NCBI GenBank assembly: GCA_001794755.1
Contig: MGKT01000006.1
Location: 1-40,699, forward strand
Length of the DNA stretch: 40,699 nucleotides
Origin: Candidatus Yanofskybacteria bacterium RIFCSPLOWO2_02_FULL_44_18
GTDB taxonomy: Bacteria; Patescibacteriota; Minisyncoccia; 2-02-FULL-40-12; GWA2-44-9
Reading direction: 5' to 3'
The notes beneath the pieces are model-generated. The model ran no database searches and was not told where the DNA came from. It worked only from the letters and a program-made list of their open reading frames with translations. Made by a program: the position numbers and the translations under genes. Below, one piece after another: positions 14,423 through 18,363 of this stretch. The stretch's first letter is position 1; every line of letters begins with the position of its first letter.

Positions 14423-15469
14423 ATGAAACCGTCCCGCAAAGCCCAGGCCTGGTCGCTGTTAGGTGTTACTGTTACGGCTCTTATTTTCCGGTTCTTTCGG
14501 GTGCCGTTTTCAATATCCAGTGAAGAGGGTTTGATAATGGCCGGGGTTCTTTCGGTCATCGGATTATATATTCTGGCCAGGCGCATATACGGCTGGCAAA
14601 TTGCCGGCATCGCCGCGTTTCTGGCGGCTATTTCCCATTGGCATGTTCAAATCTCGCGGAGCGGTTCCGAGGAAATATGGCTGGTTTTGATAATAACTTT
14701 TGTTTTTTATTTCGTCTGGGAAGGATTGCGAACCAATCACTTGACCGATTATATTTGGGCCGGTGTTTTGACGGCTGCAGGATTGTACAACTATGAAAAT
14801 TTTTATTTTATCATTCCGGTTTTGATAATAATTTTTCTAAGCTACTGGTCGTTCTTGAAGGCAGACTTCAGCCATTCAAAATACGACCATAGCCGGCATG
14901 TGCTGCTAAAAGGTTTCTCCGTGCTTTTGTTGACCGGCATTATAATTTCACTGCCGCTGCTATTTTCAATTTGGATGAATCGATTTGAAATTTTAAACAC
15001 CGGCGGCGCATCATCCGTATTCTCCCAGCCCCAAATACTTTATTCGTTTTATGACAGATTTGCCGCGACTTTTTCCCAGTTTTGGTTCAGTGACAGGCCG
15101 CTCCTGCCGTGGCCGATTGGAATATTTTTCGCAATTGGCTTAATTAAGGAGGTGACCCATCTCTTTAAGAGAAAACACGGCCATCTGTCTGTCGCCCACG
15201 TTTTCATGGTCAGTTCGCTGTTTATTCTTCTTATTCCAAATTTTATCTCAATGCATGCCGTGTCGACAGCCATGGTTATTCCTTTTGTAATGATGTTCTC
15301 CGCGCGCGGCATTTGGTGGCTGATTAATAATGTAAGCAAGTGGCAGTATATGACAACCGAGGGTCCGGCCGCGGAAACTCTGCATTTCAATGCTCGACTT
15401 GCTCTGGCTGCGTTGCTCATTGCATTCACGGTTGTTGAATATTATTGGCTTTTTGGCCCACTAATATAA
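14423..15469 (+). CDS. GT39-like membrane glycosyltransferase, missing first periplasmic loop
   Basis: Start ATG 14423 (MKPSRKAQAW) is preferred; an earlier ATG at 14381 adds 14 unusual residues. A TAGAAT-like -10 box at 14409-14414 with TGGACA at 14383-14388 may be the promoter. The 348-residue protein has about nine hydrophobic helices and the YILARRIYGWQIAGIAA, then SHWHVQISRSG, pattern of ArnT/PMT-type transferases. In that family an acidic DE pair and a long loop lie after helix 1; here SSEEG runs straight into what is normally helix 2, so roughly 50 residues are absent. It overlaps the next gene by one base (TAATG). It may be a degenerate paralogue or a partner subunit of the next gene. 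Confidence 0.68.
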   Translation: MKPSRKAQAWSLLGVTVTALIFRFFRVPFSISSEEGLIMAGVLSVIGLYILARRIYGWQIAGIAAFLAAISHWHVQISRSGSEEIWLVLIITFVFYFVWEGLRTNHLTDYIWAGVLTAAGLYNYENFYFIIPVLIIIFLSYWSFLKADFSHSKYDHSRHVLLKGFSVLLLTGIIISLPLLFSIWMNRFEILNTGGASSVFSQPQILYSFYDRFAATFSQFWFSDRPLLPWPIGIFFAIGLIKEVTHLFKRKHGHLSVAHVFMVSSLFILLIPNFISMHAVSTAMVIPFVMMFSARGIWWLINNVSKWQYMTTEGPAAETLHFNARLALAALLIAFTVVEYYWLFGPLI

Positions 15470-17214
15470 TGAACCATCTGGCTACTAAAATTACCGCGGC
15501 AGTAATAATCGCGGCCGCCGCTTTTCTGGCAATAAACAGTTCATGGGACGACAGTTTTATCGTTGATGAAATTCCTCATGTCGGAGCCGGATATTCGTAC
15601 GTTACGAAAGGAGATTACCGATTAAATCCCGAACACCCGCCGCTAGCAAAAGATCTGGCCGGATTGGCGCTGCTTTTCCTGGATATTAATCAATCTGCGT
15701 TTGAAACGCCCGTTTGGAAAGATAACGTCAATGACCAATGGAATTTTGGGCGTAATTTGATTTTCGGGTCGGGAAATAACGCGATTCTGATTACTCACGT
15801 AGCCAAATTCCCGATGCTCCTATTTTTTGTCCTCTCAGCAATAATTATTTTTGTTTGGACCAGAAAGCTTTACGGAAATGGGGCCGGTTTAATTTCCGTT
15901 TTTCTTTTTTCTCTGTCGCCCACCGTTCTGGCCCACAGCCGTTTCGTAACTACGGATATTCCGGCGCTATTCGGCGTTCTTTTAAGCAGTTATTTTTTTA
16001 TCAAGTACTTGGAACAGCCGACCCGAAAAGGTTTGTGGCTGGCTGGCATCAGCTTCGGCATTGCCCAGCTCACCAAGTTTTCTCTTATCCTCCTGGTGCC
16101 TTATTTTATCGCCGTTGCTCTCATGTGGGCGATCGCGCATCGCGACATCGTTCGTTCGTTGGCGCGGACGATTACAGTTATGGCCATTGGATTTATATTC
16201 GTCGTCTGGCCGGTATATTATCTTCATACCATGAATTATCCGGCCCAGCGCCAGCAAAACGATACGGCAAGCCTGCTCGGATCATACGGAAACAAAACTT
16301 TGCGGGAAATTGAGATTAAGGCCGCTGGAGTGCCGGTCATCAGGGCAATGGCCCAATACGGTCTCGGCCTCATGATGGTCAGCCAGAGAAGCGGCGGCGG
16401 TAATACCACATATTTCATGGGCGAAGTCAGATCTCAAGCCTGGAAGGAATATTTCCCGATTGTATATTTCATAAAAGAGCCTCTGGCTTTTTGGATTCTG
16501 GCCTTAGTTGTTTTTATCGGCCTGGGCAGCCGCGCTTCATTGAAATGGCCGCGAAACATAAAAGACATCATAAGGAAAAATTTTGTTGAATTTGCGCTGC
16601 TCGGCTGGCTGGCCATATATTGGATTACGAGCATTCAGGCCAATTTGAATATCGGCGTCAGGCATCTCATGCCCGTATACGGGTTTACGTTTATATTGAT
16701 ATCGGGGCAAATTTCGAATATATACCAGAACGTTTCAAAACAAAAAAAAATCGTGTTGGCGTCGACGCTCGTTGCCATTCTCGGCTGGTATGCTTACGAA
16801 AACATCGCGTCATATCCATATTACTTGGCATATTTTAATCAATCTGCCGGCGGGCCGGCCGGCGGCCACAGATACGTGGCGGATTCGAATCTGGATTGGG
16901 GACAGGATTTAAAGCGTCTGTCCGATTGGACTGATGGCAGCGGAATCAAGAAAATATATTTGGATTATTTCGGCTGGTCCGACCCTTATTATTATCTTAA
17001 AGATAAATATGTTTGGATAAATATCAATTCATTCTCAAGTGAAGAAGATTTCCTGTCGCGTCATCCCGAGGGCGGATATATCGCTATATCGGGAACATTT
17101 TTAATGCAGTCGCTTGATTCGTCTAAACCGAACTACCTCTGGCTATATGCAAAAAAACCGACTGTAGTTGTCGGTAATTCTATTTTCGTGTGGAAAGTCG
17201 CCGGTTCAAGGTAA
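15469..17214 (+). CDS. GT39/PMT-family polyprenyl-phosphate-sugar glycosyltransferase
   Basis: Start ATG 15469 overlaps the upstream stop as TAATG. The 581-residue protein has an N-terminal helix, a first loop with the acidic VDEIPH pair (about 30-35) and NPEHPPLAKD, then about ten further membrane helices, RKLYGNGAGLIS, SPTVLAHSRFVTTD, and NLNIGVRHLMPVYGF. A soluble C-terminal part (from about 470) contains SNLDWGQDLKRLSDW. These are usual for patescibacterial PMT-like proteins that move a sugar from a polyprenyl phosphate donor to a protein or glycan outside the membrane. Donor and acceptor are unknown. It is the last gene of the plus-strand pair, converging on the structured RNA. Confidence 0.85.
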   Translation: MNHLATKITAAVIIAAAAFLAINSSWDDSFIVDEIPHVGAGYSYVTKGDYRLNPEHPPLAKDLAGLALLFLDINQSAFETPVWKDNVNDQWNFGRNLIFGSGNNAILITHVAKFPMLLFFVLSAIIIFVWTRKLYGNGAGLISVFLFSLSPTVLAHSRFVTTDIPALFGVLLSSYFFIKYLEQPTRKGLWLAGISFGIAQLTKFSLILLVPYFIAVALMWAIAHRDIVRSLARTITVMAIGFIFVVWPVYYLHTMNYPAQRQQNDTASLLGSYGNKTLREIEIKAAGVPVIRAMAQYGLGLMMVSQRSGGGNTTYFMGEVRSQAWKEYFPIVYFIKEPLAFWILALVVFIGLGSRASLKWPRNIKDIIRKNFVEFALLGWLAIYWITSIQANLNIGVRHLMPVYGFTFILISGQISNIYQNVSKQKKIVLASTLVAILGWYAYENIASYPYYLAYFNQSAGGPAGGHRYVADSNLDWGQDLKRLSDWTDGSGIKKIYLDYFGWSDPYYYLKDKYVWININSFSSEEDFLSRHPEGGYIAISGTFLMQSLDSSKPNYLWLYAKKPTVVVGNSIFVWKVAGSR

Positions 17215-17216
17215 AT

Positions 17217-17285
17217 AAAAAGGGGAGGACCTTTCCGACAATCGTCGCCTGCGTCATGCAGGTCGTTGTCCATCAGGTACTCCCC
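17217..17285 (-). terminator. Terminator hairpin of the structured RNA
   Basis: Arms 17285-17276 and 17231-17222 pair over ten positions with one mismatch. They enclose an inner hairpin, and five T residues follow on the minus strand (17221-17217). Confidence 0.78.
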
Positions 17286-17532
17286 ACGAAGGCGGGTGGC
17301 CGACGATGGCCAGTTCTCCCAGGCGGAGGGTCTGGTGTCGGAAGACCCGATCCCACCTCGGGAAACACCGCCGGCCATAATTTGAGCAAGAGCTCGAAAA
17401 AAGCAATACCTACAACCTGAATTCTATCGGCACATTTATAATTTCCGTGTGTTGCCTGAATTTCTTCAATAAGACTGATGAATACTGCCTTTTTCGAGCC
17501 CTCTTTCAAGGGCCCTTATATAAGGTACTTGT
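17217..17532 (-). ncRNA. Free-standing structured RNA candidate, about 316 nt
   Basis: The 372 bp between 17214 and 17587 hold no convincing protein gene. A consensus promoter predicts a start near 17532 and a terminator ends at the T-run 17221-17217. Several helices are visible: (A) 21 bp, 17503-17483 with 17408-17388, including four G-U pairs; (B) inside it, 17456-17450 with 17434-17429, with one bulge; (C) GGTGT 17369-17365 with ACACC 17338-17334, enclosing CCCGA/TCGGG; (D) TGGCC 17312-17308 with GGCCA 17301-17297; (E) 17285-17276 with 17231-17222, enclosing GACAA/TTGTC and CCTGC/GCAGG. The signature motifs I know for RNase P RNA, SRP RNA and tmRNA were not found. No minus-strand gene follows, so it is not a leader. 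Function unknown. Confidence 0.72.
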
Positions 17533-17538
17533 ATAATA

Positions 17539-17568
17539 ATTATAGCACGAAAGCCAAGTAAATGTCAA
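17539..17568 (-). promoter_or_regulatory. Consensus sigma-70-type promoter of the structured RNA
   Basis: On the minus strand a perfect TTGACA (17563-17568) is 18 bp from a perfect TATAAT (17539-17544). It is one of the strongest promoter matches seen in the window and suggests high expression. Confidence 0.85.
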
Positions 17569-17586: not shown

Positions 17587-18363
17587 CTATTTATAGTAAA
17601 TTCGGCCATTTATGCGCAAATCTATATACTCAATATTTTCGGCATCATTTGATCGCAGGAATGCCTCAAAAATCTTGAATTGCGATTCAATATCCGATTC
17701 TGTCGATATTTTAATATAATAATTTTTGTTTGTATATATAAACATGTCGTTAACTGATTTATCGGCAATTAAAATTCTTTTTATATTTATGGACTTGGGC
17801 ATATTTTCCGATATCCTTAATATGGCCTCAAAATATTCCTTCTCTATGGCATCTCTCTTCTCGTCATCAACGGAAAGCAATACGTAACCGCTTGTTTGAT
17901 TTGGAGCCCCCCAAACATTCATTTCCCTATCAAAATAAACGCAGCCGTCGTCCCGAAAGCACCAAATGCCGACGGGGGTTCTCTCGGAAATTGTGATTTC
18001 CAGATTATGGGGATATTTTTTTTCCGTATTTATACTCTTAATCATCGGATATTTTGAAAGCAAATATTTATTAAAATTATCCGAATTAAAAAAGAATATA
18101 TTTCTCTGAGTCGGAATATATAATACGGATTTATCCATATATTCATGCGCTGCAGACACAATTTCGCCGCTGCCAATCGCGCTTGTCTGATTCGCGCTGA
18201 CATTCGTAATTTTTAAATACGAACTGAAAAATATTAAATACAGAGTCAGAGATATAAGGGCGATGACGAGAAATATTATGGCCGATATTTTTATTATAAA
18301 AGCGCGGCGCCGGCGCATCGCCAATTTGTCGTGGTAACCGCTTTTTATGTCAACCGCCCTCAT
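17587..18363 (-). CDS. ftsQ: FtsQ/DivIB-like cell division protein
   Basis: The 258-residue protein has a basic cytoplasmic start (MRRRRAF), one membrane helix (about 25-48) and a POTRA-like region after it (LKITNVSANQTSAIGSGEIV ... YPMIKSINTEKKYPHNLEITISERTPVGIW). Then come a strand-rich domain with DGCVYFDREM and a C-terminal IEYIDLRINGRIYYK, matching the FtsQ plan. It should sit in the divisome, linking membrane and septal wall synthesis. Overall similarity is low, so the name rests on domain order. It overlaps serS by 4 bp (ATGA) and is the last gene of the lysS-serS group. The strong promoter at 17539-17568 lies just downstream and drives the RNA, not this gene. Confidence 0.72.
   Translation of the reverse strand: MRAVDIKSGYHDKLAMRRRRAFIIKISAIIFLVIALISLTLYLIFFSSYLKITNVSANQTSAIGSGEIVSAAHEYMDKSVLYIPTQRNIFFFNSDNFNKYLLSKYPMIKSINTEKKYPHNLEITISERTPVGIWCFRDDGCVYFDREMNVWGAPNQTSGYVLLSVDDEKRDAIEKEYFEAILRISENMPKSINIKRILIADKSVNDMFIYTNKNYYIKISTESDIESQFKIFEAFLRSNDAENIEYIDLRINGRIYYK

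Follow-up and report, generated by a model that had tools for sequence, protein, structure and literature searches.

The described RNAs that come closest to the one reported here are 6S RNA (RF00013), the LOOT RNA (RF03000), the boxA leaders of rrn operons, and SRP RNA, RNase P RNA, and tmRNA, which are likewise stand-alone structured RNAs of similar size. Our RNA lies in a genome of Candidatus Yanofskybacteria, in a window of 40,699 nucleotides (the whole stretch of DNA that was analyzed). Parcubacteria and Patescibacteria account for a large part of bacterial diversity, and their genomes are very small. With 6S RNA, the RNA shares the size of its short members (~180–190 nt), a promoter of its own, one long interrupted hairpin, and a presumed abundance. 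It differs from 6S RNA in that there is no sequence or covariance-model match, in that conservation centers on a small asymmetric loop, and in that the RNA carries a 3' extension in the family to which the window's genome belongs. The LOOT RNA is also a structured RNA of unknown function, and the same genome contains three matches to it (L060:3590-3706, L060:12206-12326, and L062:5848-5965), but the LOOT model has no match at our locus, where a single-copy RNA has its own promoter and terminator. The boxA sequences of rrn leaders (UGCUCUUUA / UGUUCUUUG) resemble the 5' leader AGUUCUUUA of our RNA; however, this motif is missing from the 16S leaders of these genomes, and the interpretation as a boxA antitermination leader is thus unsupported. 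Of the last group, RNase P RNA and tmRNA were located elsewhere in the genome, and SRP was not found in the family.

A predicted separate transcription unit downstream of ftsQ

The features that delimit the transcript are as follows:

17539..17568, minus strand: sigma-70-type promoter TTGACA-18-TATAAT (12/12 match; TG precedes the -10 element)
17217..17532, minus strand: non-coding RNA of ~316 nt (start at 17532/17535, placed from the promoter; evidence from the fold z-score and covariance-model homologues)
17217..17285, minus strand: terminator (hairpin 17285-17222, then T5; evidence from sequence and fold)
17587..18363, minus strand: ftsQ (POTRA; Pfam POTRA_1, 3e-6), upstream of the RNA on the same strand

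The first-pass annotation had described a perfect TTGACA/TATAAT promoter with 18-bp spacing, an RNA of about 316 nt ending in a hairpin and a T-run, and the absence of a minus-strand gene behind it, all of which could be confirmed. The RNA would start ~7 nt past the end of the promoter, and the transcript from 17532/17535 to 17217 folds at -129.8 kcal/mol (z = -6.0 in comparison to dinucleotide shuffles). Its terminator hairpin is closed by 17285-17280/17227-17222 (GGGGAG/CUCCCC) and followed by TTTTT at 17221-17217. As a second, simpler terminator with T7 is found downstream at 17175-17157, transcripts may in part end ~65 nt later. The next gene is convergent (15445-17214, plus strand, mannosyltransferase-like) and ends at 17214, and on the upstream side the RNA is preceded by ftsQ and then by serS, a DUF5674 gene, and lysS. 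The 3' half of the RNA (17217-17380) has a GC content of 62%, in comparison to 38% in the 5' half and 44% in the window, which agrees with the previously noted GC enrichment relative to the surroundings. In 23 of 25 relatives, the RNA is preceded by a promoter with at least 9 of 12 matching positions, with TTGACN-17-TATAAT being the form of nearly all members, and it is from this conserved near-consensus promoter that we infer a strong expression and high abundance of the RNA.

The RNA is not covered by known families and has no conserved protein frame

With Rfam 15, no match was obtained on the RNA, neither at the gathering score nor at E=10, and the two chance matches in the window fall outside the RNA. 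The analysis of ten related loci at E<=5 gave nothing on the RNA but chance matches far under the cut-offs. For 6S RNA in particular, RF00013 matched neither the window at E<=10 nor the 10 related loci at E<=5. A scan of the whole 631-kb genome identified rRNAs, tRNAs, one tmRNA, three LOOT RNAs, and one group I intron, and no 6S RNA. The group I intron match (L044:8113-8308) is barely over the gathering score. In the 16S loci L119-L146, several family members have 16S rRNA genes whose matches are broken up into separate segments, as is to be expected with large insertions or introns.

It is highly improbable that the RNA is a divergent housekeeping RNA (RNase P, SRP, or tmRNA): at the gathering score, Rfam indeed reports neither RNase P nor SRP RNA in the genome, but an RNase P RNA missed by this score is recognizable by its core motifs at L045:19090-19540 (contig C6 of the same genome, ~179.1-179.5 kb), from which it follows that our RNA is not RNase P, the RF00023 match for tmRNA lies at C4:36999-37353, and neither SRP RNA nor SRP54 was found in any of 28 family genomes. 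The RNase P core motifs GAGGAAAGUCC and ACAGAA are absent at our locus. In these 28 genomes, the small-SRP model had no match, and the search for an SRP54-type GTPase (Ffh/FtsY) yielded merely short P-loop fragments. A loss of SRP has been reported for Parcubacteria (PMC4508563), with which these negative results are consistent. That the first-pass annotation did not find core motifs of the three housekeeping RNAs here is in line with the genome-wide data.

We also considered a protein-coding function. For a 78-aa ORF (17273-17509), a search of 384 genomes gave no homologue, and no Pfam match was obtained with this or a second small frame (17133-17378). In most members, stops interrupt the core in all three frames, and thus no conserved protein frame is detectable. 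Together with the covariation described below, these results support the proposal of the first-pass annotation that the region represents a new, lineage-specific non-coding RNA. Judged from sequence comparisons, it is new at the level of the RNA family, as it falls outside the coverage of Rfam 15 and no known RNA was identified as its homologue, and a limited literature search revealed no description of such an RNA in Parcubacteria or Patescibacteria. Should it prove to have the function of a known RNA, for instance 6S, a novel kind of molecule would be doing an old job.

Distribution in Paceibacteria

Plain blastn over 95 genomes gave nothing real; a match in G088 was rejected as a chance match within a coding gene. 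The flanks of ftsQ in family genomes, in turn, held the same RNA. A first covariance model, R1, was searched in 27 sampled genomes of the window's family and in other families, and it matched 21 of the 27 genomes as well as genomes of families f3 and f10 (three and one, respectively; E-values are rough, according to the tool's own statement). The second model, R2, was built on nine training sequences, with variable loops trimmed from most, and added weaker matches in f4 and f21, plus a second copy in G025. This second copy (L150, G025 C9), found in one family genome, is more f3/f4-like and has its own promoter. As six of the 27 sampled family genomes gave no R1 match, the RNA may be non-essential or more diverged there. 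A phylum-wide draw of 380 genomes produced no new match and none outside the class. Two matching genomes that were found by pattern scan and that also score with the model are those of Candidatus Yanofskybacteria RIFCSPLOWO2_01_FULL_49_17 and nzgw416. Twelve pattern-scan matches in other phyla were not scored with the model and were treated as chance, and a match in G075 was not counted, being a bare palindrome without the P3 motif (see below). The presumed lineage specificity was thus borne out by the covariance models, the matches of which come from one family and from a few further families in the same class.

The genomic neighborhood is only partly constant. In several genera, ftsQ is the gene upstream of the RNA, and in many family members the RNA follows ftsQ or a MurB-like gene. 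The neighboring genes, which besides ftsQ we take from their sequences to be murB, dnaJ, recO, and murF-like genes, vary between genomes, and this variation argues for a role in trans.

A covarying core and a variable 3' domain

Within the transcript, the following elements were distinguished:

17521..17529, minus strand: conserved 5' leader AGUACCUUA, directly after the promoter in most members
17496..17515, minus strand: hairpin H1 (GGGCCCU / AGGGCUC), competes with outer P1
17483..17501, minus strand: P1 5' strand (evidence from covariation)
17421..17461, minus strand: hairpin P3 (AUUC-A-GGC ... GCC-GAUA-GAAU) with a conserved asymmetric internal loop
17390..17408, minus strand: P1 3' strand (evidence from covariation)
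17384..17395, minus strand: hairpin H3 (GAGC-UCUU-GCUC), competes with outer P1
17297..17377, minus strand: P4, a GC-rich hairpin domain in the 3' part (family-specific extension; outer stem 17377-17366/17308-17297)

The 21-bp helix of the first-pass annotation (17503-17483 with 17408-17388) is present in the MFE fold, and 19 of its pairs, which constitute P1, are conserved in relatives. In 18 distinct sequences, 98% of the cells are paired, as opposed to at most 54% when P1 is slid out of register. The compensating base changes that had been suggested as a check were found: P1 covaries strongly, with double-sided changes at 11 of 19 pairs and 0 of 500 shuffles being as good on any of five measures (these permutation tests ignore relatedness; according to the tool, the P1 measures are rarely exceeded without structure). 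The double changes differ between genera.

The hairpin P3, the 5' leader, the H1/H3 alternatives, and the nature of the 3' half as a lineage extension had not been part of the first-pass annotation. An RGGC...GGCC/GCC motif with a 4-5-bp stem of varying sequence occurs in 24 of 25 members; the stem variants are UUUC/GAAA, AUUC/GAAU, AUCU/AGAU, AUCC/GGAU, and UCUC/GAGA. On the 3' side of RGGC...GGCC lies the asymmetric loop NNUA/NNAA, and the apical loops are of three types (AGGCAACACAC, AGGCAUUCAAGUAAGAUAU, and AGGCAUCAUC). The P3 pairs by themselves are not significant on nine aligned sequences (60/500), because the GGC/GCC pairs never vary. The repeated AATTCAGG block that had been noted is present in the window, but two copies were found in none of 17 other members checked, and the repeat is a by-product of the palindromic P3 stem AATTC/GAATT.

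H1 and H3 draw on the strands that also make the six outermost pairs of P1, and the two alternative pairings are both preserved. The H1 pairing was reached by only 3 of 1000 permutations with swapped partners and the H3 pairing by 1 of 1000, with the site that paired best being taken as the partner strand in real as well as in swapped pairs. Compensatory changes, the hallmark of a structured RNA family, are hence seen in P1, H1, and H3. The outer P1 pairs are retained in most members, for example as AAACUC:GAGUUU in L088. Formation of H1 and H3 versus extension of P1 is a four-strand exchange, the two states of which are paired to a similar extent.

The 3' domain gave a fold z-score of -3.9. 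Most family members have long 3' stems, the sequence of which is wholly different between genera, and the GC-rich 3' half is a variable extension of the window's family. In f3 and f10, an intrinsic terminator follows shortly after P1, which indicates that the core is the conserved unit.

Possible functions

We consider a stand-alone RNA family of Paceibacteria (Candidatus Yanofskybacteria and neighbors) that is probably protein-bound and acts in trans to be the best explanation, and we would give this reading about an even chance of being correct. The RNA would be transcribed from its own near-consensus promoter and would fold into a long irregular hairpin, with P1 (19-25 bp) followed by P3 with its RGGC...GGCC and asymmetric NNUA loop. 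In the window's family, the variable GC-rich hairpin domain and the terminator would come next, whereas in other families, transcription would end at an intrinsic terminator soon after P1. Most likely, the product would be an abundant RNA acting in trans that is held by a protein reading the P3 loop, with P1 serving as a rigid scaffold, and the alternative between H1/H3 and extended P1 could represent a co-transcriptional folding pathway or a switch. The combination of an own promoter and conserved loops fits a trans-acting RNA. More tentatively, and with a smaller chance of being right, the RNA could constitute an undescribed class, namely the core of a Paceibacteria-specific RNP or global regulator with an H1+H3/extended-P1 switch and a fast-evolving GC-rich domain in Yanofskybacteria.

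An unlikely alternative is a base-pairing sRNA that uses the 5' leader or the P3 apical loop as a seed on mRNAs, e.g., at purine-rich ribosome-binding sites. The pyrimidine-rich leader (AGUWCYUUA; AGUUCUUUA being the form in most relatives) sits at the extreme 5' end, remains single-stranded when the window's RNA is in its MFE fold, and varies mainly by pyrimidine transitions, all of which would suit a seed. However, the leader paired with 555 gene starts of its own genome no better than shuffles did (17 of 60 shuffles were equal or better for the top 20), which gives no enrichment for an anti-Shine-Dalgarno seed, and the motif is indistinct in L088. As the boxA and leader-pairing tests were both negative, we place a protein-bound RNA ahead of a base-pairing RNA, and the latter ahead of a 6S-like polymerase regulator. 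The only other combination of promoter and leader in the genome, which is within chance, belongs to a gene at L063:1206-2907 (contig C4 of the same genome), where a promoter and the leader AGUUCCUUA precede a long 5' UTR that contains a 13-bp hairpin, and where two adjacent frames resemble a diversity-generating-retroelement target and its repeat.

The possibility of a functional 6S analogue, i.e., a long hairpin that is interrupted by an internal bubble and would bind RNA polymerase, is suggested by the size and architecture of the short members, which have their own promoter, and by the lack of a detected 6S RNA in the genome. We regard it as improbable, since relaxing the E-value brought up no Rfam match to 6S in the related loci scanned, the loops next to P1 appear small in the folds of short members, and the conservation lies in the P3 loop and not in a single large central bubble. 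A little more improbable still is a cis element, such as a 3' UTR or a transcription insulator of the ftsQ/murB cell-wall operon. While a cis role in that operon would be compatible with the frequent position after ftsQ or MurB-like genes, the RNA has a strong promoter of its own, lies beside dnaJ, recO, or other genes in other genera, and conserves loop motifs past the needs of a terminator.

The RNA and its own promoter were kept in streamlined genomes of ~0.6-1 Mb that have lost even SRP, which makes an important role likely. This is directly testable with the covariance models and with metatranscriptomes that already exist for Ca. Yanofskyibacteriaceae on methanogens (PMC10936435). As a side aspect, two relatives (L023:1117-1275 and L027:978-1136) contain an extra, near-identical hairpin (GCCCTCCTCCGTATAACTACGG.CGGGC) within P1, which is possibly a mobile repeat.
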